Assembly (NCBI GenBank): GCA_028288765.1
Contig: JAQGHQ010000289.1
Location: 1-38,120 of the forward strand
Reading direction: 5' to 3'
Length of the DNA stretch: 38,120 bases
Origin: Gemmataceae bacterium
GTDB lineage: Bacteria; Planctomycetota; Planctomycetia; Gemmatales; Gemmataceae
Below are positions 19,099 to 38,120 of the stretch, piece by piece (within the stretch, counting starts at the first letter, position 1; the number at the start of each line of letters is the position of its first letter). Both the position numbers and the translations under genes were made by a program. The notes under the pieces are model-generated. The model ran no database searches. It was not told where the DNA came from and was given only the letters and a program-made list of their open reading frames with translations.

Positions 19099-19396
19099 GA
19101 CAGAAGACGGAATGGCCGCAAAAAGGCACGAAAAAGCACGAAAAGAAGAAATGATTTTCTTATTCCCTCGTTCCCACGCTCCGCGTGGGAATGAGCCTTG
19201 CCCGCTCTGCGGGGTGGACCAACCCACCCCGGGTGACGTTAGTCGAGTCCCCGGGAACGCGCTCGGACCGTCTCGGCCACGACGCAGAGCGTCGAAGAGG
19301 GCATTCCCCCGCGGAGCGTGGGAACGAGGGGATGAATTTCTTATGTCTTTTCGTGCTTTTTCGTGCCTTTTTTGTGGCCATTCTGCTTTTTCGGCT
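19099..19396. repeat. Large imperfect inverted repeat of about 300 bp
   Basis: Left arm 19099-19193 and right arm 19302-19396 are reverse complements with a few mismatches, including AGGCACGAAAAAGCACGAAA against TTTTCGTGCTTTTTCGTGCC and CCCTCGTTCCCACGCTCCGC against its complement. The 108-base centre has a further partial hairpin. The A/T-rich outer arms are unlike the local composition. The element occupies almost the entire gap between the convergent MerR and DUF488 genes and contains no gene. It has MITE-like geometry; no target-site duplication could be defined by eye. Confidence 0.75.
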
Positions 19397-25034: not shown

Positions 25035-25487
25035 TCAGTCCCACAAGTAATTCTCGTCGAACCCGAGCCCGTGGCGGGTGAGCAGCGCCCGGAACTCGTC
25101 CTGGAACGTCCGCGTCCGGTGGTGCTCGTCCTGGTTCGCGATGTACGCCTTCACCGTGTCGATCACCGAGTGGCTGACGGTAAACGCCCCGTACCCGGTC
25201 TGCCACCAGAACCCGCCGGCCGCCGGGAACGTGTCGTGAACCCAGCCCGACGACCCGGCCTTGAGCTGCCGCACGAAGTCCGCCAGGGCGGGTTGTTGCC
25301 GGAGGGTGGCGAGCAGGTGAACGTGATCGGCGGTCCCGCCGACCGCGAGCGAGATACCCCCCTCGCCCCGGACAATGCCCCCGAGGTACTCCCAGAGGCG
25401 GGGGCGAAGGTCCGGGGTGATCGTCGGCTCCCGGTGCCTGGTGCTGAATACGAGATGATAGTGCAGGCAGGTGAACGACTGAGGCAT
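25035..25487 (-). CDS. IS200/RAYT-like Y1 transposase
   Basis: A 150-residue single-strand DNA transposase of the HUH-Y1 class. CLHYHLVFSTRHRE (7-20) is the first strand, ADHVHLLATL (53-62) contains the HUH metal motif, and SVIDTVKAYIANQDEHHR (107-124) carries the catalytic Tyr115, with FQDEFRALL following. No TnpB follows. It stops on the base next to the MoxR stop, convergent with it. No classical IS200 end hairpins are evident, but a palindrome lies at 25535-25689. Domesticated REP-associated transposases (RAYTs) have this single-gene-plus-palindrome arrangement. Start ATG 25487 gives the family's usual length. Confidence 0.85.
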   Translation of the reverse strand: MPQSFTCLHYHLVFSTRHREPTITPDLRPRLWEYLGGIVRGEGGISLAVGGTADHVHLLATLRQQPALADFVRQLKAGSSGWVHDTFPAAGGFWWQTGYGAFTVSHSVIDTVKAYIANQDEHHRTRTFQDEFRALLTRHGLGFDENYLWD

Positions 25488-29183: not shown

Positions 29184-30041
29184 ATGCGGCGGGACGTGCG
29201 GGGGCGGGTCGTGATGGTCACCGGGGCCTCGCGGGGGATCGGGCGTCGGGCGGCCGAACGATTGGCCAAACTCGGCGCAAGGCTCGCCCTCACTGCACGT
29301 TCCGCTGACGACCTCGCCAAGCTCGCGGGCGACTTACGGGCCGGCGGCAGCGACGTGGCGATCTTCCCCGGCGACCTGACGAAGCCCGGCGACCGCGATC
29401 AGATTGTGACCGCCGCGATCGACCGGTTTGGCGGGCTGGACGTCCTGATCAACTGCGCTGGCGTGTGCAGTTTTGGCGAATTTAGTACGTCGACGGAGGA
29501 TATTGTCAGGCAGGTAATGGAGGTAAACTTCTTCGCCCAGGCCGAGATGATCCGTGTCTGCCAGCCGCACCTGACGAGAAGTTTTGAGCGGGCCCGCGAC
29601 GGGTGGCGGCCGGCGGTGGTGAACGTGGCGAGCATCTGCGGGAGATGGGGTATCCCGTCGATGTCCGAGCACTGCGCCAGCAAGCACGCATTCGTCGGAC
29701 TGACGGAAGCCCTGCGGGGCGAGTTCGAGCGGTTCGGGATTGACGTTCTGCTCGTGCTCCCCGGGCTGGTCCGGTCCGACGACCTGAACCGGCATCTACT
29801 GCGGAACGAGGGAAAGATCCACCTCGATTTCGCGGGCGCGCAGCCGTCGGCCGAGGTCGCGGACGGTGTGGTGCGAAGTTTGCTGAACAACCGGACCGAG
29901 GCGGCGGTCGGGTTTGTGTCGTGGTGCGTGTGGCTGTTCCGCCGGCTATTCCCCCGGGCCGTCCGGTTCTTCATGCAGCGGAAGGTGTGGCGGTTCGCGA
30001 GGCGGGAACGTGCAAGCGGCCAATCGACAGTGACCAGTTGA
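29184..30041 (+). CDS. Short-chain dehydrogenase/reductase-like protein with His in place of the catalytic Tyr
   Basis: A 285-residue Rossmann-fold protein. TGASRGIG (13-20) is the NAD(P) glycine motif, TARSADD (37-43) suggests NADP by the Arg/Ser after strand 2, NCAG (90-93) and NVASICG (147-153) are present, and Ser150 and Lys167 stand in their usual places. The residue four before Lys is His163 (SEHCASKHAF), where nearly all classical SDRs have Tyr. The C-terminus adds a hydrophobic, basic segment (FVSWCVWLFRRLFPRAVRFF), probably membrane-associated, as in many SDRs acting on lipids. Activity is therefore uncertain. The HicA-like gene starts 12 bases after its stop. Confidence 0.88.
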   Translation: MRRDVRGRVVMVTGASRGIGRRAAERLAKLGARLALTARSADDLAKLAGDLRAGGSDVAIFPGDLTKPGDRDQIVTAAIDRFGGLDVLINCAGVCSFGEFSTSTEDIVRQVMEVNFFAQAEMIRVCQPHLTRSFERARDGWRPAVVNVASICGRWGIPSMSEHCASKHAFVGLTEALRGEFERFGIDVLLVLPGLVRSDDLNRHLLRNEGKIHLDFAGAQPSAEVADGVVRSLLNNRTEAAVGFVSWCVWLFRRLFPRAVRFFMQRKVWRFARRERASGQSTVTS

Positions 30042-30053
30042 GGAAGCCCTGCG

Positions 30054-30374
30054 GTGAGTCGCCCGGCGAAAACTCTGGATCGGGTACTCCGCGGGACGGC
30101 CGACGCGAACATCGCGTTCGAAGATTTGTGCGGGCTGCTGCGGGACTTAGGGTTCGCCGAACGGGTGCGTGGCAGCCACCACATCTACAGCCGCGACGGT
30201 GTGGCGGAGATTCTGAACCTCCAGCCGATTGGGGGCAAGGCAAAGGCGTATCAGGTCCGGCAGGTGCGAGGCGTGATCGTCGGGTACGGGTTGGCCGGCG
30301 ATTCGGGCGACCAGCCCCCGGCCGGGGCGGACGAGACGACGAAGGCCGAGGGGGAGGTTGATGATGGGGAATGA
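30054..30374 (+). CDS. hicA: HicA-like mRNA interferase toxin
   Basis: A 106-residue protein with a double-stranded RNA-binding-like fold. FEDLCGLLRDLGFAERVRGS followed by HHIYSRDG is the diagnostic region: the G-S-H motif holds the catalytic His (about 42). LQPIGGKAKAYQVRQVRGVI continues the HicA pattern. The C-terminus (about 85-106) is a Glu/Asp-rich tail longer than usual. A GTG start at 30054 is supported by GAGGAAG eight bases upstream, overlapping the SDR stop. It overlaps the HicB-like gene by 14 bases, the usual toxin-first order. Toxin activity is inferred from family. Confidence 0.82.
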   Translation: MSRPAKTLDRVLRGTADANIAFEDLCGLLRDLGFAERVRGSHHIYSRDGVAEILNLQPIGGKAKAYQVRQVRGVIVGYGLAGDSGDQPPAGADETTKAEGEVDDGE

Positions 30375-30582
30375 ACATCGCTACGAGGTGATCCTGTATT
30401 GGAGCAAGCCCGATCAGGCGTACCTTGCCGAGGTGCCGGAGTTGCCCGGGTGTGCGGCCGACGGGCCTACCCGCCAGGAGGCACTGGCCGCCGTCGAGGT
30501 GGTGATCGCCGAGTGGATCGAAACCGCGAAGGACCTCGGCCGTCCGATCCCCGAGCCGCGGGGCCGGCTGATGTTCGCGTGA
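30361..30582 (+). CDS. hicB: HicB-like antitoxin
   Basis: A 73-residue protein with the partial RNase H-like fold of HicB: HRYEVILYWSKPDQAYLAEV, then PELPGCAADGPTRQEALAAV (the D-G-x-T-x-x-E-A signature) and VIAEWIETAKDLGRPIPEP. It lacks the C-terminal DNA-binding domain of longer HicB proteins and belongs to the short form. It would bind the preceding HicA-like toxin. The start is ATG 30361 or 30364; GGGGGAGG lies just ahead and favours the latter slightly. It is followed 18 bases later by the phosphatase gene. Confidence 0.85.
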   Translation: MMGNEHRYEVILYWSKPDQAYLAEVPELPGCAADGPTRQEALAAVEVVIAEWIETAKDLGRPIPEPRGRLMFA

Positions 30583-30600
30583 TCTTTGGACCGGTGGCAC

Positions 30601-31017
30601 ATGCGACAGGTCGGCAACTACCCCCTGTGGATCGGAACCGCGCGGGACGCGCGCGACATCAAAGGAGTATTGGCCGCCGGAATTCACGCGGTCGTCGACC
30701 TGGCGGCGGAAGAGCTGCCGGTCAGCCCGACCCGGGACCTGGTGTACCTCCGGTTCCCCCTCGTCGACGGCGAGGGGAACGAGCTGAGACTCCTACGGGC
30801 GACGCTGGGGTCCGTGGTTGCGTTGTTGAAGGCCCGGATCCCGACGCTCGTGGCCTGCGGGATGGGGATGAGCCGGGCGCCGGCGGTCGTGGCGGTGGCA
30901 TTCGCGACGGCCTACCAGCTGACCCCCGCCGACGTGCTGAACATGATGCCCGGGCCGGGCGACGTGTCGCTGGGGCTGTTGCGGGACCTGGGGGCGGCCG
31001 TCGAAGAAGTCAGTTGA
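30601..31017 (+). CDS. Small dual-specificity/tyrosine-phosphatase-like protein
   Basis: A 138-residue protein with the cysteine-phosphatase signature C-x5-R: CGMGMSR at 86-92, with Ser91 before Arg92 as in active enzymes. Strand YLRFPLVDGEGNEL (49-62) precedes it; Asp56 is placed to act as general acid. The residue before Cys86 is Ala, whereas most family members have His. The helix SRAPAVVAVAFATAYQL follows, as in dual-specificity phosphatases. Substrate is unknown. ATG 30601 was chosen; an upstream TTG would add five residues. It lies on the plus strand after the HicAB-like pair. Confidence 0.8.
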   Translation: MRQVGNYPLWIGTARDARDIKGVLAAGIHAVVDLAAEELPVSPTRDLVYLRFPLVDGEGNELRLLRATLGSVVALLKARIPTLVACGMGMSRAPAVVAVAFATAYQLTPADVLNMMPGPGDVSLGLLRDLGAAVEEVS

Positions 31018-31124
31018 GGGGTGACCCGGGCCGCGAAACCGAGACGAAGTACCGGTACGCCGGACGTTTCACAAGGCCGTTAACTGCCGACCGGCTACTG
31101 TCTACTGGCAAGGGGTGAGACCTG

Positions 31125-33230
31125 ATGTGCGGGATCGCGGGAATGATCGACCTGAGCGGCCACCGGCCGGCCCCCCGTGGGGTCGTGCCGGCGATGGCCC
31201 AGGCCATTTACCACCGCGGCCCCGACGAAGACGGGTATCTCACCGGCGCCGGCCTCGAACTCGCCAACCGCCGGCTCTCGATCGTCGGCCTGGCCGACGG
31301 CAAGCAACCGATCTCGAACGAAGCCGGCACCGTCTGGACCGTCTTCAACGGCGAGCTCTTCGAGTACCCCGAGAAGCGGCGCGAGCTCGAAGCGAAGGGC
31401 CACGTCTTCCGCACCCACACCGACACGGAGCTGGTCCCGCACCTGTGGGAAGAGTACCGCGAGGGGATGCTCGACCACCTCCGCGGGCAATTCGCCCTCT
31501 GCGTCTGGGACAAGCGGACGAACGAGGTCGTCCTCGCCCGCGACCGGTCCGGGATCTGCCCGCTGTTCTACGCCGTCCGCCGGCACGACGGGGCCGACTG
31601 GCTCCTGTTCGCCTCCGAGATGAAGGGCCTGTTCGCCTCCGGCCTGGTCGAGCCGAAGGCCGACCTCCGCGGCCTGAACCACGTCTTCACCTTCTTCGCC
31701 ATGCCCGGCCCGGTGACCGTGTTCGAGGGCGTCACCGCCCTCGCCCCCGGCCACTACCTCCGCTTCGGGCTCGGGACCACGTCGCCCGCCGCCGCGCAGA
31801 CGCAGCGGGCCTACTGGCGGGTGACGTACCCCGACCGCGGGCAGGAGGAGTACGGCGCGGACGAGGCGAAGGTGGTCGACGGGTTCGAGCAGGTGCTGCT
31901 CGCGGCGGTGAACAAACGGCTGCGGGCGGACGTGCCGGTCGTCTCGTACCTGAGCGGCGGGGTGGACTCGAGCCTCGTCGTGGCGATGGCGAACAAGGCC
32001 CTCGGCCGGCCGATCCCGACGTTCACCATCTCGGTGCAGGGCGAGGGGATGAACGAGGAGAGCGAGGCCCTCCAGGTGGCCCGGCACCTCGGGTGCGAGC
32101 CGGTCGTGGTGAAGTCGGGGCACGACGAGCTCCGGGTCGGGTACCCGGAGCTGATCGGGGCGGCGGAGATCCCGGTCGTCGACACGTCGTGCCTGGCGCT
32201 GCTCGAACTCGCCCGGTCGGTCCACCGGCACGGCTACAAGGTGGCCCTGACCGGCGAGGGGGCCGACGAGTGGCTGGCCGGCTACTCGTGGTTCAAGATC
32301 AACAGGGTGGTCGGGTTCCTGGACCGGGTGCCCGGGGTGCCGGTCGGTGGGGCGCTGCGGACCCTGTTCCTGAAGGCGACCGGCCAGCCGACGTTCCCGC
32401 TCCGGCAGTACCAGGCCACCCAGCAGCTGCTCGGCGGGCCGAACGGGTGGCTCGACCTGTACGGGATCATGAGCCTGAACAAGCTCCGGTTCTTCACCCC
32501 CGAGAAGCGGGACGAACTCCTCCGGTACTCGCCGTGGGAGGACCTCGACCTGTCCCCCGACCTGCACCGGTGGCACCCGTTCAACCGCCAGATGTACCTG
32601 GGGGCCCGGGTCATGCTCCCCGGCCACCTGCTCGCCTCGAAGGGCGACCGGGTGGCGATGCACTCGTCGGTCGAGACGCGGTACGCGTTCCTCGACGAGG
32701 ACGTGCTGGCGTTCGTCAGTCGGCTCCACCCGCGGTGGAAGCTCCGCGGGCTCCTGCGGGACAAGTTCGTCGAGCGGAAGGTCGCCGAGCGGTGGCTGCC
32801 GAAGGAGGTCGCGTGGCGGCGGAAGCGCATGTTCCGCGCCCCGATGGACGCCTGGCTGGAGGGGAGAGAGGGTACGGGTCAGGGGGTAGGCCGGAATGGC
32901 ACGGCCCACCCCTATCCCCCGTCCCCTGTCCCCTCCGAAGGCTGGATCGACCAGGTCCTCTCCGCGGAGTCGATCCGGAAGGCGGGGTACTTCGACCCGG
33001 AGGCGGTGGCGGCGGCCCGCCGGAAGATCGGCGGGATGCGCCGGGGGCTCGGCCGGACCGGGCTGGAAATGGGCCTGACCGCGGTGACCGCCACCCAGCT
33101 GTGGCACCACCTGTACATCCGCGCGGAGCTGTGCGACCTGCCGAGCCGGGTATCGGGTATCGGGTATCGGGTATCGGGCGAATACCCGGGACCGGTGCCT
33201 TCCGCCCCACCCGGCCCGTTGGTGGTCTGA
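31125..33230 (+). CDS. asnB: Asparagine synthase-type amidotransferase with repeat-derived insertions
   Basis: A 701-residue enzyme of the glutamine-hydrolysing asparagine synthase family. Cys2 (MCGIAG) is the N-terminal nucleophile of the glutaminase half; YHRGPDEDG (29-37), NRRLSIVG (48-55) and FNGELFEY (74-81) bind glutamine. The synthetase half has the PP-loop SGGVDSS (277-283) and GEGADEW downstream. Homologues of this kind often amidate secondary metabolites or cell-envelope components rather than making free asparagine. Two stretches are odd: residues 579-604 come from an inverted word array and interrupt a conserved C-terminal region (DAWLEG before, WIDQVLS after), and residues 675-701 are also array-coded. 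The gene begins the likely operon; AGGGGTGAG precedes the ATG. Confidence 0.92.
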   Translation: MCGIAGMIDLSGHRPAPRGVVPAMAQAIYHRGPDEDGYLTGAGLELANRRLSIVGLADGKQPISNEAGTVWTVFNGELFEYPEKRRELEAKGHVFRTHTDTELVPHLWEEYREGMLDHLRGQFALCVWDKRTNEVVLARDRSGICPLFYAVRRHDGADWLLFASEMKGLFASGLVEPKADLRGLNHVFTFFAMPGPVTVFEGVTALAPGHYLRFGLGTTSPAAAQTQRAYWRVTYPDRGQEEYGADEAKVVDGFEQVLLAAVNKRLRADVPVVSYLSGGVDSSLVVAMANKALGRPIPTFTISVQGEGMNEESEALQVARHLGCEPVVVKSGHDELRVGYPELIGAAEIPVVDTSCLALLELARSVHRHGYKVALTGEGADEWLAGYSWFKINRVVGFLDRVPGVPVGGALRTLFLKATGQPTFPLRQYQATQQLLGGPNGWLDLYGIMSLNKLRFFTPEKRDELLRYSPWEDLDLSPDLHRWHPFNRQMYLGARVMLPGHLLASKGDRVAMHSSVETRYAFLDEDVLAFVSRLHPRWKLRGLLRDKFVERKVAERWLPKEVAWRRKRMFRAPMDAWLEGREGTGQGVGRNGTAHPYPPSPVPSEGWIDQVLSAESIRKAGYFDPEAVAAARRKIGGMRRGLGRTGLEMGLTAVTATQLWHHLYIRAELCDLPSRVSGIGYRVSGEYPGPVPSAPPGPLVV
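32861..32935. repeat. Inverted G-rich/C-rich word array inside asnB
   Basis: Left 32861-32890 contains GGGTACG, GGTCAGG, GGGTAGG in steps of seven; right 32911-32935 contains CCCCCGT, CCCCTGT, CCCCTCC in steps of seven. The right arm pairs with the left with about three-quarters identity. The array is in frame with asnB and encodes about 25 Gly/Arg/Pro-rich residues with no family counterpart. Confidence 0.6.
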
Positions 33231-33265
33231 CCCGATACCCGGTAAACCCGATACCCGACAGACCC
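33148..33265. repeat. Inverted GGGTATC word array at the asnB/permease junction
   Basis: Four tandem copies of GGGTATC end in GGG (33148-33178). After a 52-base spacer, inverted words (CCCGATA, ACCCGAT, TACCCGA; 33231-33265) follow, less regular but mostly spaced by seven. The asnB stop (33228-33230) and the permease ATG (33270) bracket the right arm closely. No Shine-Dalgarno sequence is left before that ATG. Confidence 0.75.
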
Positions 33266-33269
33266 GGTT

Positions 33270-34409
33270 ATGTCCTACGCCCTCCAAACCCTGTTGCACG
33301 AACGCCAGCGGTACGCGTCCGGCGTGCTGGCGGTGACGTTCTCGGCCGTCCTGATCGCGCTGCAGTGCGGGCTGCTCCTCGGGCTGTTCAAGATCACCTC
33401 GATCCCGATCGACCAGACCGAAGGGCGGGGGAACAGCGCGGACGTCTGGGTCGGGTCGACGGGGGTCCCGAGCGTCGACCTCGGGAAGCCGATCCCGACC
33501 TCGTACCTGACCCGGATCGCCGGCCGGCCCGGGGTCGGGATGCCCGAGCTGTACATCGCCAACTTCGGGAACTTCACCAAGCCGGCCGGCGGGACCGAGC
33601 TTTGCTTCCTGCTCGGCACCCTGCTCGACCCCGATTCGCTCGGGGCGGCGGACGTGCTCACCCCGGAGCTGCGGGCCGCCCTGACCGAGCCGTTCACCAT
33701 CGTGGTGGACGAGTCGGACGTGAACCGGCTGCGGCTCGACCACCCGTACGGCAAGCCGAAGATCAACGGGAAAGAGGTCAAACTGGTCGGGACGGTGAAG
33801 GGGCTCCGGAGCCTCGCGGCCCCGTGGGTGTTCTGCTCCCTGCACACCGCCCGCCAGCTGCTCGGGTTCCTGCTCCCGCCGGACCACGTGACCTACCTGA
33901 TCGCCCGGTGCGACTCCCCGGCCCGGGCCCGGGCGGTGGCGAAGGAGCTCCGGGAGCAGTACCCGGACGACATGACGGCCTACACCGCCCAGGAGTTCTC
34001 GACCGAGAGCCGGGTGTACTGGCTGCTCCGGACCCGGGCCGGGATCGCGCTGGGGTACGCGGCGCTGCTGGGCCTCTTTGTCGGGGCGGTGATCACGGCC
34101 CAGACGATGTACTCGGCCACGGTGGCGAGCGCGAAGGAGTTCGCGATCCTGCTGGCGCTCGGCATCCCGCGGTGGCGGATCGCGGTCATGGTCCTGACCC
34201 AGTCGTTCTGGGTCGGGCTGATCGGGATCGCGCTGGCGTACCCGATCTGCCTGGGGCTGCGGGAGGCCGTCCGGGCGAAGATCGACGTCGACCTCCGGGG
34301 GGAGATCCTGGCCGGGACGGCCGGGGTGGCCATCCTGATGGCGCTCATGGCCGGCACCTGGGCCCTCCGGTCGGTCCGGCGGATCGAGCCGATGGATTTG
34401 TTGCGGTAG
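33270..34409 (+). CDS. ABC transporter permease, FtsX/DevC type
   Basis: A 379-residue membrane protein. An N-terminal helix (SGVLAVTFSAVLIALQCGLL) is followed by a long extracytoplasmic domain (about 45-250), then three helices (GYAALLGLFVGAVITAQTMY; VMVLTQSFWVGLIGIALAYP; LAGTAGVAILMALMAGTWAL). EFAILLALGIPRWRIAVMV is the FtsX-family coupling helix motif. This layout matches DevC of DevBCA exporters, which move glycolipids with an HlyD-type adaptor and an outer-membrane channel. The ATPase and adaptor are the second and third genes downstream. The stop is one base before a tandem word array. Confidence 0.9.
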   Translation: MSYALQTLLHERQRYASGVLAVTFSAVLIALQCGLLLGLFKITSIPIDQTEGRGNSADVWVGSTGVPSVDLGKPIPTSYLTRIAGRPGVGMPELYIANFGNFTKPAGGTELCFLLGTLLDPDSLGAADVLTPELRAALTEPFTIVVDESDVNRLRLDHPYGKPKINGKEVKLVGTVKGLRSLAAPWVFCSLHTARQLLGFLLPPDHVTYLIARCDSPARARAVAKELREQYPDDMTAYTAQEFSTESRVYWLLRTRAGIALGYAALLGLFVGAVITAQTMYSATVASAKEFAILLALGIPRWRIAVMVLTQSFWVGLIGIALAYPICLGLREAVRAKIDVDLRGEILAGTAGVAILMALMAGTWALRSVRRIEPMDLLR

Positions 34410-34410
34410 T

Positions 34411-34460
34411 GTTTGGTGTTTGGTGTTTGGTGTTTGGTGTTTGGTGTTTGGTGTTTGGTG
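34411..34460. repeat. Left word array: seven GTTTGGT copies
   Basis: Seven perfect tandem copies of GTTTGGT plus one G, starting two bases after the permease stop (34407-34409). Its reverse-complement array lies at 34910-34982, on the far side of the four-helix-bundle gene. There are no mismatches among the copies, implying recent expansion or correction. Confidence 0.95.
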
Positions 34461-34499
34461 TGAGAGTGTTTGTGGTTTGCTGAATACCGGGGTGTCATT

Positions 34500-34910
34500 G
34501 TGGCATTCGTGCGGTTTCAGGAACTCGTGGTGTACCAACTCGCCGAGGAATTGGCGGACGCCATCTGGGGGATTGTCCGGAAATGGGACGTGCTCGCACG
34601 GGACACGGTCGGGAAGCAGGTGATCCGCGCTGCGGACAGTATCGGGGCCAACATCGCCGAAGGCTCCGGGCGGCACGGTCACAACGACAACCGCCGGTTC
34701 GTCCGCATCGCCCGCGGGTCGTTGCTCGAAACCCAACCCTGGCTCCGCCGTGCGTTCCGCAGGAACTTACTCACGCCGGACCAGACAACAGCTTTGCACG
34801 CGACTGTCGAAAAGCTCGCCCCCAAGCTGAACGCTTATCTGAGATCCATCGGACGGCCACCCGTGACGAGACAGACCCCCGAACAAGACTCATCACCTGA
34901 CGGCGGGTGA
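34500..34910 (+). CDS. Four-helix-bundle protein (23S-IVS / Avd-like)
   Basis: A 136-residue helical protein of the family first seen in 23S rRNA intervening sequences and related to Avd of diversity-generating retroelements. RFQELVVYQLAEELADAIWG is the first helix, KQVIRAADSIGANIAEGSGR the signature (A-x-S-I-x-x-N-I-A-E-G), and FVRIARGSLLETQPWLRRAF the third helix. Family members are basic nucleic-acid-associated pentamers in some systems. It is placed between an ABC permease and its ATPase and is bracketed by inverted 7-base word arrays, so it is likely an insertion. GTG 34500 was chosen; the GTG at 34509 is possible. No rRNA or reverse transcriptase is nearby. Confidence 0.88.
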   Translation: MAFVRFQELVVYQLAEELADAIWGIVRKWDVLARDTVGKQVIRAADSIGANIAEGSGRHGHNDNRRFVRIARGSLLETQPWLRRAFRRNLLTPDQTTALHATVEKLAPKLNAYLRSIGRPPVTRQTPEQDSSPDGG

Positions 34911-34982
34911 CCAAACACCAAACACCAAACACCAAACACCAAACACCAAACACCAAACACCAAACACCAAACACCAAACACC
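34910..34982. repeat. Right word array: ten ACCAAAC copies
   Basis: Ten perfect tandem copies of ACCAAAC plus ACC. It begins at the A of the four-helix gene's TGA and ends on the base before the ATPase ATG (34983). It is the exact complement of the left array's word but has three more copies. It leaves no ribosome site ahead of the ATPase gene. Confidence 0.95.
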
Positions 34983-35711
34983 ATGCCCGCCGTCGCCACC
35001 AACCCGACCTTGAAAGGCGTCCACCTGACCCGGACCTACGGGGACGGGGCGAAGCGGCGGGCCGCGCTGCGGGACGTGTCGATCGACCTGTTCCCCGGCC
35101 AGCTCGTCCTGCTTATGGGGCCCAGCGGGAGCGGGAAATCGACCCTGCTCGCGGTCATGTCCGGGCTCCTCGAACCGGACTCCGGGCAGGTGCTGGCGGA
35201 GGACGGCGGGGACCTCCGGGACGTGTGGACGATGACCCCGAAGGAGCGCGAGGACTTCCGCCTCCGGACCACCGGGTTCATCTTCCAGGGGTACAACCTG
35301 TTCCCCGCCTTGACCGCGCGACAGCAGCTGGAGATCGTGTTAAAATGGGGTGGATACGCGGGCGGGGCCGAGGCCCGCCGGCAGGCCGACGACATGCTCG
35401 AGAAGCTCGGCCTGCTCCCGAACCGACACAAGAAGCCCGCCCACCTGTCCGGCGGCGAGAAGCAGCGGGTCGCGATCGGCCGGGCGCTGGTGAAGGACCC
35501 GACGTTCGTGTTCGCCGACGAACCGACCAGCGCCCTCGACTGGGAGAACGGCCAGCGGGTGATGGAGCTGCTCCGGGACGCGGCCCACGACCGGGGGGCG
35601 TCGATCCTGGTCGTTTCCCACGACCACCGGTTGCTCCCGTACGTGGACGTGTACTATCACCTGGAAGACGGCCACCTGGAGGAGCGCCCGCTGATCCCGG
35701 CGGGCCACTGA
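34983..35711 (+). CDS. ABC transporter ATP-binding protein, LolD/DevA/MacB type
   Basis: A 242-residue ATPase that would power the permease above. GPSGSGKS (46-53) is Walker A, FIFQGYNLFPALTARQQLEI (99-118) holds the Q-loop with the N-L-F-P/L-T pattern of this subfamily, LSGGEKQR (155-162) is the signature, TFVFADEPTSALD (174-186) Walker B and D-loop, and VVSHDHRL the switch His. It starts directly after a word array and has no Shine-Dalgarno sequence, so translation may rely on coupling or on a weak internal signal. Its own stop begins a perfect GC palindrome. The adaptor gene follows. Confidence 0.95.
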   Translation: MPAVATNPTLKGVHLTRTYGDGAKRRAALRDVSIDLFPGQLVLLMGPSGSGKSTLLAVMSGLLEPDSGQVLAEDGGDLRDVWTMTPKEREDFRLRTTGFIFQGYNLFPALTARQQLEIVLKWGGYAGGAEARRQADDMLEKLGLLPNRHKKPAHLSGGEKQRVAIGRALVKDPTFVFADEPTSALDWENGQRVMELLRDAAHDRGASILVVSHDHRLLPYVDVYYHLEDGHLEERPLIPAGH

Positions 35712-35779
35712 CGGCGCCCGCCGCGGCGGGCGCCGTACCGGATAGACGATTCGCAGGGGGCCGCCCGCCGCGGCGGCCC
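35711..35779. repeat. Two GC palindromes between ATPase and adaptor genes
   Basis: 35711-35736 is a perfect 26-base palindrome centred on CCGCGG and starts at the last base of the ATPase stop. 35758-35779 is a second hairpin (GGGCCGCC, 6-base loop, GGCGGCCC). Neither has a T-tract, so they are weak terminators at best and may instead shape mRNA stability. They differ from the word arrays of the other junctions. Confidence 0.75.
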
Positions 35780-35841
35780 GCCGATCATTCGCCCCCGGCC
35801 GAGCGGAGTTCCCGGCCGCACCACTGGAGGGAAGGTGCCCC

Positions 35842-37020
35842 ATGACGTGGCTGCGTAAGTTCCGGCCGCCGTTGTTCGTCCTCGGCGGGCTGCTGCTGAT
35901 CGGCAGCCTGCTCGGTGGCCGGCTGCTCACCCACGGGTCCGGAGGGGGGACCGAGCCGGCCGGGAAGACCACCCTGCCGGCCCACGCGCCGGACACGCCC
36001 GGCACGATCTTCCTCGGGTTCGTCGACTCCGACCCGCCCCCGGTCTCCCACGGCCTGCCCCCGGTCTTGCAGTCCGGGGAGGTCGAGAAGGTGTTCGTGA
36101 ACACGGGCGACGAGGTCAAGGTCCGGACGTTCGTGCTCTGGGGCCGGACGGTCCGGGTCGGCGACCCGCTGTACAAGTTCAACACGACCCTCCAGGAGGA
36201 CGACCTGAAGCAGGCCCGGCAGGTGGTCGAGGTCGCCCGGGTGAAGGTCCGCCAGGCGAAGGCCCTGGAGCAGCAGCACAAGACGAAGATCGCGCTCCAG
36301 AAGCAGAAGCTCGCCGGGGCTGAATTGCGGGTGAACCGGACCCAGGAGGGGTACCACGTTTACTACCGGAACCTCCGGGCGGCGAAGGAAGACCAGTTCG
36401 GGAGGGACAAGAAGGAGCTGATCGAACAGGCGATGAAGGACGACCCGAAGCTGTTCGAACTGGAAACCGCGTACCTGACGGCCGAGCGGGAGCGGGACGT
36501 CGAGAAGGCGACCCTGGACGCCCTCGAAACGACCGACATCGGGGCGGCGGTGGCCGAGGCCGAGGCCGAGGTGAAGCGGTACCAGACGGTGGCCGACAAG
36601 GCCGACACGGCGGTCGAGCTGTGTACCGTCCGGGCGAAGGTGGCCGGGACGGTCGAGCGGGTGAACATCAGCCCCGGGGACACCCTGGGGATCAGCACCC
36701 GGATTCCGGCCGTCATCCTGGTCCCGGCCGGCCCGCGGGTTGTCCGGGCCGAGGTCGAGGCCGACTTCGCCCACAAGGTCGGGCCGGACAAGAAGGGCAA
36801 GGAGGTCACCATCTACGACAACTCCGACGCGAAGCTCACCTACACCGGGGTGGTCCGGCAGATCGGGACCACGTTCCTCCCGAAGCGGAGCACCGGGGAC
36901 GGGTTCATCCAGAACGAGACGCGGGTCCTGGAGGTGGTGGTGGACGTGCCCGACCCGAACCCGCCCGGCAAGCCCCCGCTCCGCGTCGGCCAGCGGGTCC
37001 GGGTGAAGTTCGGGCAATAA
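35842..37020 (+). CDS. HlyD/DevB-type periplasmic adaptor protein
   Basis: A 392-residue adaptor. One membrane helix (LFVLGGLLLIGSLLGGRLL, 11-29) anchors it; the first lipoyl half contains GEVEKVFVNTGDEVKVRTFV (about 76-95); a long helical hairpin follows, with DDLKQARQVVEVARVKVRQA and AETAYLTAERERDVEKATLD-like heptads (about 118-245); the second lipoyl half reads VRAKVAGTVERVNISPGDTL, then a beta barrel (VVRAEVEADFAHKVGPDKKG). It would link the FtsX-type permease to an outer-membrane channel. No TolC-like gene lies in the window. GGAGGGAAGG precedes ATG 35842, an excellent ribosome site, unlike its neighbours. Confidence 0.9.
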   Translation: MTWLRKFRPPLFVLGGLLLIGSLLGGRLLTHGSGGGTEPAGKTTLPAHAPDTPGTIFLGFVDSDPPPVSHGLPPVLQSGEVEKVFVNTGDEVKVRTFVLWGRTVRVGDPLYKFNTTLQEDDLKQARQVVEVARVKVRQAKALEQQHKTKIALQKQKLAGAELRVNRTQEGYHVYYRNLRAAKEDQFGRDKKELIEQAMKDDPKLFELETAYLTAERERDVEKATLDALETTDIGAAVAEAEAEVKRYQTVADKADTAVELCTVRAKVAGTVERVNISPGDTLGISTRIPAVILVPAGPRVVRAEVEADFAHKVGPDKKGKEVTIYDNSDAKLTYTGVVRQIGTTFLPKRSTGDGFIQNETRVLEVVVDVPDPNPPGKPPLRVGQRVRVKFGQ

Positions 37021-37026
37021 ATCAGG

Positions 37027-37146
37027 CAAATGACGAATGCCCCACCAATGACCCACCAATGACGAAGGAAGACAACCCGGCGGGTACGCCGGTCGAGGTT
37101 TTACCCTTCGTCATTGGTGGGTCATTGGTGGGGCATTCGTCATTTG
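37027..37146. repeat. Perfect 40-bp inverted repeat of CATT-based words
   Basis: Arms 37027-37066 and 37107-37146 are exact reverse complements with a 40-base loop. Inside the right arm the words CATTGGTGGGT, CATTGGTGGGG and CATTCGT follow each other, in steps of 11, 11 and 7. Similar words continue to about 37200, into the beginning of the next gene. It starts six bases after the adaptor's stop. Confidence 0.9.
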
Positions 37147-37166
37147 CCCCGGCCGGTGGGGCATTG

Positions 37167-38036
37167 GTGGGTCATTCGTCATTCCCCGAGTCATTCGCGC
37201 ATTGTCGCCGGGTCGCCCGCCGGGCCAACAGCTCCTTCCCGCTCGCGTTCCGGCTGCTCCCGGCCGGGAAGCGGCGGGCGATGGACGCCCTGTACGCGTT
37301 CATGCGGGTGACCGATGACCTGGCCGACGAGCCCGGCGACCCCGCCGTCAAGCGCGCGAGCCTGGACCGGTGGCGGGCCGCCCTGGCCGCCGCCCTCGCC
37401 GGCCGGTACTCCCACCCCGTCCACCCCGCCCTGCACGACATCACCCGCCGGTTCGCCGTCCCTCCCGAGTACCGGTCCGCCGTGATCGACGGCGTGGAGT
37501 CGGACCTCGAACCGGTCCGGTTCGCCACGTTCGCCGACCTGTACCCGTACTGTTATCGGGTGGCTTCGGTGGTCGGGCTGGCGTGCGTCCGGGTGTGGGG
37601 CGTCCGCCCCGGGGTGGAGCCGGCCGACGCGACCGCCCCGGCCGAGGCGGCGGGAATCGCGTTCCAGCTCACCAATATCCTCCGCGACCTCGGCGAGGAC
37701 GCCGCCCGCGGGCGGGTGTACCTGCCGGCCGACGAGATGGGGCGGTTCGGGTGCCCGCCGGAGATGTGGACCGCGGCTGGCGGGGCGTTCCGCGAAATGA
37801 TGCGGTTCCAGGTCGGGCGGGCCCGGGACTATTACCGCCGGGCCGAGGTGCTCCCCCAGCTGCTCTCCGCCGACGGCCGGGCGATCTTCCGGATGATGTG
37901 CGGCACGTACCAGGCGCTGCTCGACGAAATCGAGCGGCGTGACTACGACGTACTGACCCGGCGGGTCCGGGTCCCCCGGTGGCGGAAGGGGCTGATCTTC
38001 CTCTCCGCGTGGCCGGTGAAGTGGGAACTCCTGTGA
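37167..38036 (+). CDS. Squalene/phytoene synthase-family protein
   Basis: A 289-residue trans-isoprenyl diphosphate synthase. FAHCRRVARRANSSFPLAFR (10-29), KRRAMDALYAFMRVTDDLAD (35-54) with the first aspartate-rich motif D50-D-x-x-D54, and QLTNILRDLGEDAARGRVYL (167-186) with the second one are all present, as are YCYRVASVVG and the flap tyrosine region. It would join two farnesyl or geranylgeranyl diphosphates head-to-head. HpnC/HpnD-type hopanoid enzymes are the closest look by motif, but carotenoid synthesis is possible. The start is uncertain: the GTG at 37167 fits homologues, but it and an ATG at 37059 both lie in repeat sequence. Confidence 0.88.
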   Translation: MGHSSFPESFAHCRRVARRANSSFPLAFRLLPAGKRRAMDALYAFMRVTDDLADEPGDPAVKRASLDRWRAALAAALAGRYSHPVHPALHDITRRFAVPPEYRSAVIDGVESDLEPVRFATFADLYPYCYRVASVVGLACVRVWGVRPGVEPADATAPAEAAGIAFQLTNILRDLGEDAARGRVYLPADEMGRFGCPPEMWTAAGGAFREMMRFQVGRARDYYRRAEVLPQLLSADGRAIFRMMCGTYQALLDEIERRDYDVLTRRVRVPRWRKGLIFLSAWPVKWELL

Positions 38037-38120
38037 TTGCGGATTGCGGATTGCGGATTGCGGATTCAAGAGACCCGGGATCGGCACCGCCGGGTCCGCA
38101 ATCCGCAATCCGCAATCCGC
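38035..38120. repeat. Inverted GATTGCG/CGCAATC array at the window edge
   Basis: Four tandem GATTGCG copies plus GATT (38035-38066) begin within the synthase's stop codon. After a 28-base spacer with a CCCGG..CCGGG hairpin, CGCAATC-type words run from about 38095 to the edge and may continue beyond it. Same layout as the GTTTGGT/ACCAAAC pair. Confidence 0.9.

Follow-up and report, generated by a model that had tools for sequence, protein, structure and literature searches.

In REPIN-RAYT and REP-BIME systems, a protein gene flanked by inverted repeats is accompanied by dispersed intergenic repeats that carry no gene; the RAYT protein is a Y1 transposase, and its REP sequences are palindromic. 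We know of no established function for the S23/IVP proteins (23S_rRNA_IVP, PF05635), a structure of which was solved in 2006, and of no known origin for the tandem heptamer arrays seen in several bacteria. Here we analyze a 38,120-nucleotide stretch of a Gemmataceae bacterium (assembly GCA_028288765.1, contig JAQGHQ010000289.1), referred to below as the window, which is an entire contig of a ~10-Mb draft genome in 615 contigs. It contains an S23 gene enclosed by two inverted arrays of a heptamer, along with five further sites at which a short word and its inverse are tandemly repeated. Such arrays probably form the ends of S23 elements and of derivatives that lack S23, with the S23 protein paired to its cognate arrays much as RAYT is to REPINs.

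Parts of this arrangement have been described before. The 23S rRNA intervening sequence (IVS) of Coxiella is reported to have a 28-bp terminal inverted repeat and to be excised by RNase III in vitro; the tandem heptamers (GACAGAT) that precede its S23 open reading frame (ORF) at a short distance vary in number between strains (PMC4990558). Rehm et al. described arrays of GGGNATC in Xanthomonas, two genomes of which have 70 and 75 inverted pairs, and of GGGGA(C/T)T in Nostoc, the latter with few inverted pairs reported, as G-quadruplex repeats (PMC4692102). The TAACTGA repeats of Beggiatoaceae are intergenic tandem heptamers found in several phyla, their origin left unexplained; they differ from the arrays described here in being nearly all direct, with one inverted case (PMC4679880). 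The terms “four helix” and “23S” occur nowhere in the text of either heptamer paper. PF05635 has been likened to Avd (PMC10053308), a protein of diversity-generating retroelements. Apart from the Coxiella paper, we recognized no work linking S23 genes to tandem arrays among the titles and abstracts of the top literature matches, a search lying outside most subscription papers and all preprints.

The S23 element between the FtsX-like and ABC genes

The S23 gene of the window (34470..34910, + strand; PF05635 domain at 34518-34832, E 2.2e-26) lies inside what we call site 3. On its left stand 7.6 copies of GTGTTTG (34409..34461, + strand), which start at the stop codon of an FtsX-like permease gene, and on its right 10.6 copies of the inverse word CAAACAC (34910..34983, - strand), which reach into the start codon of an ABC ATPase gene. 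The inverted repeat is perfect over 53 bp, the full length of the shorter arm. An earlier reading of the DNA letters (the original prediction) had reported inverted tandem-word arrays at five sites, and all five are present; it overlooked the S23 gene inside site 3 and a sixth site at 19110-19383.

The S23 protein matches its Pfam profile at 92.6 bits, against a curated cut-off of 33.8, and at E ≤ 0.001 it matches PF05635 only, with no Y1/HUH transposase match; no enzymatic domain was seen in it. An AlphaFold (AF2) model is a four-helix bundle (pLDDT 93.6), whose nearest solved folds are 2gsc (E 7e-6, target TM 0.88) and 2rld, each with five chains. Avd (4dwl, 8ube) is a weaker structural match (E about 0.01, target TM about 0.8), sharing the fold at ~11% identity. 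Between the window and congener G061, dN/dS of the S23 gene is 0.09 (approximate, dS being 1.1 and thus above 1), lower than the 0.22 of the neighboring FtsX-like gene, and Lysobacteraceae orthologues of S23 have a mean pN/pS of 0.32 over 66 pairs. Hence, S23 is a constrained protein, under purifying selection.

With an S23 ORF within terminal inverted repeats, site 3 resembles the 23S rRNA IVS. It differs in lying between FtsX-like and ABC genes and not in a 23S rRNA helix, and elements of its type have long word arrays on both sides, a different word for each element, and dispersed relatives without S23. With the heptamers of Xanthomonas and Nostoc the arrays share their period, an intergenic position between aligned genes, and the occurrence of inverted pairs (PMC4692102). 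The window's words (GTGTTTG, AATGACCCACC, GATTGCG, GGGTATC) form the same class without conforming to GGGNATC or GGGGAYT, and words of those two types flank S23 in ~10 of 29 Lysobacteraceae and two of 29 cyanobacterial loci, judged by eye. The original prediction knew of no named system of this description. This is half right, as two parts of apparently the same thing do have names: the rRNA IVS together with its S23 gene, and the heptamers of Xanthomonas and Nostoc.

S23 genes are often flanked by inverted word arrays

Across many phyla, S23 genes are often closely flanked by inverted arrays of 7-mers, less often of 8-, 11-, or 14-mers. An array was called at a score of at least 12 within 300 bp of the S23 domain. 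Within the family of the window, 35 of 61 genomes carry PF05635, and 72 S23 loci from these (37 from the profile-search results and 35 fetched, the remaining listed matches being left out) have arrays at 87 of 144 flanks, compared to three of 138 distal positions at 600-900 bp. The period is 7 in 48 of these arrays, 8 in 13, and 14 in 13. A cross-phylum set, the best 80 of 574 candidate loci, spans Planctomycetota, Acidobacteriota, Verrucomicrobiota, Pseudomonadota, Bacteroidota, Bacillota, Cyanobacteriota, candidate phyla, and ANME-1/Methanophagales archaea; it has arrays at 97 of 160 flanks versus four of 145 at 900-1200 bp, scanned for most loci from a default domain end that is a few bases off. 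Arrays are seen at 48 of 58 flanks in a cyanobacterial order (29 loci; S23 in 43 of 60 genomes), against two of 53 distal positions, and distal controls cover these three sets. Similar searches found arrays at 33 of 58 flanks in Lysobacteraceae (29 loci; S23 in 29 of 60 genomes), at 21 of 28 in three further congeners (14 loci), and at 29 of 60 in ten named genomes (30 loci, some repeated from the cross-phylum set). The locus sets overlap and the flank counts include repeats; six repeats were removed for the word analysis (254 to 248 loci), and a few may remain.

The two arms of an element agree with each other. An inverted match between the left and right flanks of the same element, with a score of at least 16, is seen at 167 of the 229 S23 loci that have both flanks (56/71, 51/74, 42/57, and 18/27 by set, with slight overlap), compared to none of 208 distal controls and 2%–4% of mismatched pairs. 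Of 123 elements with a 7-mer word on both arms, 103 have words that are identical or one base apart (4% of mismatched pairs), and the mean between-arm word distance is 0.79, as opposed to at least 2.91 in 5,000 permutations. Distinct left words number 117 among 151 elements. Read inwards, the words are G-rich and C-poor (0.36 versus 0.14); a fixed recognition motif was considered and rejected, since they have just a weak G-rich pattern (3.2 bits versus 2.6 for letter-shuffled words). In the 11-mer family, the variable base is the same on both arms in ten of 11 elements with both arms intact. Whole-arm copying predicts that the order of variant units be mirrored between arms, and it is mirrored beyond permuted order (summed z 8.5, 136 elements), a tendency weak in single elements: 81 lie above and 42 below the permuted mean, and 18 of 136 reach p ≤ 0.05. 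Similarity of S23 also correlates with similarity of words (r -0.20 over 176 loci; 500 permutations reach down to -0.08), the mean word distance being 0.4 in the five closest S23 pairs and then 1.6, 2.9, 3.2, and 3.5 as S23 similarity falls.

With exceptions, the words associated with S23 genes turn up again in the same genomes in arrays that enclose no gene and are scattered over gene junctions. The GTGTTTG pattern, counted as exact 18-mers with overlapping hits, occurs 51 times on 15 contigs of the window's own genome and 70 times in G061, where the S23 gene at the orthologous junction has GTGTTTG as its left word and, on the right, a variant differing by one base; the pattern has no hits in G032, G049, or G063, and the reversed pattern has none. 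Hits of the site 4 11-mer number 21 in the own genome, where they lie on 12 contigs, and 44 in G049; G062 has a single hit and the three remaining congeners have none. This 11-mer flanks an S23 gene both in the own genome (G000:C194, one side intact) and in G049 (G049:C887, both sides). These two words, each absent from three congeners, support the original suggestion of an active process that spreads arrays. The claim that each site has its own word is correct within the operon, but GTGTTTG and AATGACCCACC are dispersed families and not unique to their sites. An 8-mer word lies next to S23 genes in G039 (two genes; 185 hits) and G009 (one gene; two hits); it is found in nine of the 61 genomes of the family, seven of which have some S23 gene. 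In a 250-kb sample of G098, one of four Lysobacteraceae family members sampled, the words of its two S23 genes, GTGAATC and GGGACTC, outnumber all other word types (63 and 58 dimers; the next has 16), and in 400 kb of G093, with S23 word GGGAATC, 58 dimers are of that type and seven are GGGATTC.

Twenty own-genome loci were fetched by word, of which 14 have arrays on both arms. One (L303) holds an S23 gene and 18 have no S23 match; in another (L293), a 25-residue S23-like match lies ~250 bp from the array and is perhaps a remnant. By eye, the loops of these loci are mutually unlike except near their ends. The placement at gene junctions noted in the original prediction extends beyond the operon: using a home-made gene caller trained on six window genes, we found 31 of 33 arrays (22 of 24 loci) between called genes, compared to ~76% coding in a 384-kb sample.

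When orthologous operons were compared, as the original prediction had proposed, corresponding junctions proved to be empty or occupied by other elements. For the FtsX-like gene, close orthologues were found in four congeners. Their FtsX-ABC junction has an S23 element in G061, a one-armed array with a REP-like palindrome in G049, and, by eye, gaps of ~40 and ~70 bp in G032 and G062. At the junction between the HlyD-like and synthase genes, an 11-mer-type hairpin is present in all three congeners with contigs reaching it. After the synthase gene, the window has GATTGCG and G049 has CAGTCAT; the stems of the other two congeners are different again (by eye). The junctions are therefore shared sites at which the element and the word change. 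At the G049 locus (L076), we also noted by eye REP-like palindromes (GTAGGGTGGG... and GTAGGGCACG...) at the asnB/FtsX and FtsX/ABC junctions, where the window's genome has word arrays.

Word replacement can be followed in 12 Lysobacteraceae genomes that have an S23 element between accB- and accC-like genes (identified by eye). Its word has two variable positions, at which the arms match in 12 of 12 genomes and in 11 of 12 (one tie), respectively, and a tree of the downstream gene needs four and three word changes there. Two of these loci (L343 and L353) are 0.014 substitutions per site apart in the downstream gene, yet their words differ on both arms. Both arms of a vertically inherited element can thus take on a new word over a short evolutionary distance.

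A tree of 78 S23 proteins (two of 80 were dropped for stops) has phyla partly mixed, requiring 35 changes against a minimum of 19 and a shuffled mean of 51; built on few alignment columns, it suggests possible horizontal transfer of S23 between phyla. A phage origin was rejected, the one S23 protein queried having no tblastn match in a phage collection. On cyanobacterial plasmids (L394, L395, L396), some S23 genes adjoin integrase or conjugation genes; on the Trichormus plasmid the S23 gene is located among plasmid genes. The pair of Calothrix plasmids was discarded as an example of transposition, since the nearest neighbors of S23 are in the same order on both and no jump is seen. The genome of Chryseobacterium indologenes (G073, the source of L160) has ten S23 matches, several truncated or with internal stops, and this set looks like a decaying multicopy family.

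The other inverted word sites of the window

Among the five sites first reported, three (sites 3, 4, and 5) are perfect, site 2 is good, and site 1 is decayed. We counted exact inverted tandem pairs with a period of at least seven, at least two copies, and arms within 1.5 kb. The window has three (sites 3, 4, and 5), compared to none in 100 Markov-1 shuffles; sites 1 and 2 fail this test.

The left arm of site 4 (37025..37068, + strand) belongs to the dispersed 11-mer AATGACCCACC family and its right arm (37105..37148, - strand) is a 44-bp perfect inverse in which the mixed order of 11-bp units is mirrored; the element has no S23 gene. Also S23-less, site 5 consists of 4.6 copies of GATTGCG (38035..38066, + strand) overlapping the stop of the squalene/phytoene-synthase-like gene, and a right arm (38095..38120, - strand) that is cut off by the contig end, leaving a perfect inverted repeat of 26 bp. 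That the contig ends inside an array is an observation in its own right: word arrays may break short-read assemblies, and draft genomes may undercount them.

Site 2, likewise without S23, has 4.6 copies of GGGTATC (33147..33178, + strand) inside the 3′ end of the asnB-like frame and a right arm (33230..33257, - strand) that starts at the stop codon of that frame; the paired arms, 33147-33172 and 33230-33257, score 19. Site 1 is a decayed S23-less element whose arms (32858..32893, + strand, and 32902..32936, - strand) lie in frame within the asnB-like gene, with a local score of 12.5. By eye, it has no counterpart in the orthologues of G049, G062, and G032, and G061 has a different insertion there. 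Outside the reported five, the sixth site has a 10-mer, AAAAAGCACG, as its left arm (19110..19174, + strand) and the inverse as its right (19321..19383, - strand), and it encloses a second palindrome of CGTTCCCACGCTCCGCGTGGGAATG type. Two details of the original prediction are modified by these data. A period of seven was claimed for four sites, with the fourth site mixing 11 and 7; heptamers are indeed found at sites 2, 3, and 5, but the unit of site 4 is 11 bp. All sites but one were said to lie between genes, but in addition to site 1, which is weak and inside a gene, site 2 overlaps a gene end.

The neighboring genes are ordinary: an asparagine synthase, the FtsX-like permease, the ABC ATPase, an HlyD-like protein, and a squalene/phytoene synthase. 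A second FtsX-like permease, 72% identical to that of the window, lies near a contig end elsewhere in the own genome (G000:C353, L072 / L080). None of the seven window proteins scanned against profiles has a reverse transcriptase (RT) domain, no search aimed at RTs being made.

Alternative accounts and a proposed class of S23 elements

Several observations weigh against reading the arrays as the ends of mobile S23 elements. We caught no insertion event with defined ends or a target duplication. The Xanthomonas arrays are reported to lie mostly at conserved positions, 83% being common to two species, which argues for low mobility (PMC4692102). About 40% of S23 flanks fall below the array threshold, and six of the 20 own-genome loci fetched by word have an array on one side only. 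The 528 kb of own-genome sequence examined yielded no further arrays of GATTGCG or GGGTATC. G062 has 11 GTGTTTG hits, although none of its five S23 matches bears that word, and the S23-associated 8-mer occurs in G011 (74 hits) and G036 (three hits), where no S23 gene was detected. In 400-kb samples, G131, with S23 word GGGAATC, has 14 dimers of that type versus 39 of the GGGATTC type, and in G079 the S23 word GGGATTC is barely commoner than the GGGAATC type (23 versus 17). The hits in G011 are of the 8-mer TGACAAGG, an orphan array family or an assembly gap.

The arrays could instead be RNA stems, acting as RNase III sites, terminators, or intercistronic stabilizers, with selection on the transcript keeping the arms complementary; the original prediction had raised such an RNA-level function. 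RNase III excision of the Coxiella IVS (PMC4990558), the reported transcription of most Xanthomonas heptamer arrays (PMC4692102), and the predominance of arrays between co-directional genes (18 of 22 intergenic loci in the own genome) are in its favor, as is the site 4 hairpin, which the three congeners readable there retain, with some wobble changes. Folding of a sense transcript would favor G-U mismatches between arms. In 117 S23 elements of the family and cross-phylum sets, with arms aligned at a score of at least 18, the counts of G-U-type and A-C-type mismatches do not differ (187 each), in a test that had no positive control and was diluted by a further 448 transversion-type mismatches, partly from out-of-register units. 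With no G-U bias, the arms seem to be matched as DNA, or by something strand-blind, rather than as sense RNA, and the S23 elements tested lend no support to an RNA function. A known Rfam RNA as the identity of the arrays was rejected, there being no match at the gathering threshold in 30000-38120. We regard RNA stems as an improbable explanation.

It is also unlikely that S23 genes are passengers, for which pre-existing inverted arrays are favored landing sites and which play no part in array spread. Many arrays have no S23 gene, and some genomes have dispersed words with no cognate S23 detected, as passengers would allow. Against this, S23 similarity predicts word similarity, the words beside S23 genes match words dispersed in the same genome, and RAYT genes, which are also mobile-like, are rarely flanked by arrays (five of 60 flanks at 30 RAYT transposase loci of the same family).

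That same count bears on a third account, in which the arrays are REP/BIME elements moved by the genome's RAYT. The window has a RAYT-like Y1_Tnp gene (25131-25469, - strand; PF01797, E 1.1e-22), two G049 junctions have the REP-like palindromes seen by eye, and RAYT genes likewise have inverted flanks (own pairs 37.9 versus 10.8 for other pairs, 28 loci), a point that also tells against taking inversion as a signature of S23. It is therefore the word arrays, and not inversion alone, that mark S23. Given their rarity at RAYT flanks, and the absence of any word array within ~330 bp of the window's RAYT, we consider this account very unlikely. Ordinary replication slippage giving rise to unrelated microsatellites, although compatible with unequal arm copy numbers (7.6 versus 10.6), is hardly credible in view of the strict inversion, the arm-specific words, the central S23, the genome-wide dispersal, the absence of inverted pairs from 100 shuffles, and the mirrored unit order, itself significant in few single elements.

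The reading of the arrays as terminal repeats of S23 elements is the one we favor. The closest analogy is with REPIN-RAYT, in which gene-less dispersed copies share the repeats of the gene-bearing copy, as they do here with the exceptions of G011, G036, and G062. The difference is that S23 is a four-helix bundle without a known enzymatic domain and its repeats are word arrays. The S23 system would by this analogy work like REPIN-RAYT without being a member, there being no Y1 transposase.

In the mechanism that we propose, the Avd-like S23 protein would recognize the arrays, either as DNA or in the form of a nucleic-acid intermediate, and would promote their copying in such a way that both arms are rewritten together. 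S23-less copies would spread in trans, much like REPINs with RAYT, and intercistronic gaps would be the places where copies survive, with slippage altering the copy number within an arm. Because no enzymatic domain is seen in S23, a host enzyme would be required, and a host polymerase, recombinase, or reverse transcriptase would supply the chemistry of insertion.

The 23S rRNA IVS is probably one member of this class of S23 elements, and the layout, which recurs in many bacteria and some archaea, may explain several short-repeat families that have had no explanation. We extend this further only tentatively, and with some doubt, to a domain-wide form of mobile DNA without a transposase, in which an Avd-like S23 protein and a cellular RT or polymerase might copy G-rich words into inverted arrays, rewriting both arms and spreading S23-less copies; the 23S rRNA IVS, the G-quadruplex heptamers of Xanthomonas and Nostoc, and perhaps the short tandemly repeated repetitive sequences (STRRs) of cyanobacteria would be its traces.

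Linking S23 genes and heptamer arrays gives each a testable partner, as each S23 protein should recognize the word beside its own gene, and it makes natural protein-word pairs available for work on binding, mobility, and concerted evolution. If the link is true, the rRNA IVS would be recast as one landing site of a widespread element.

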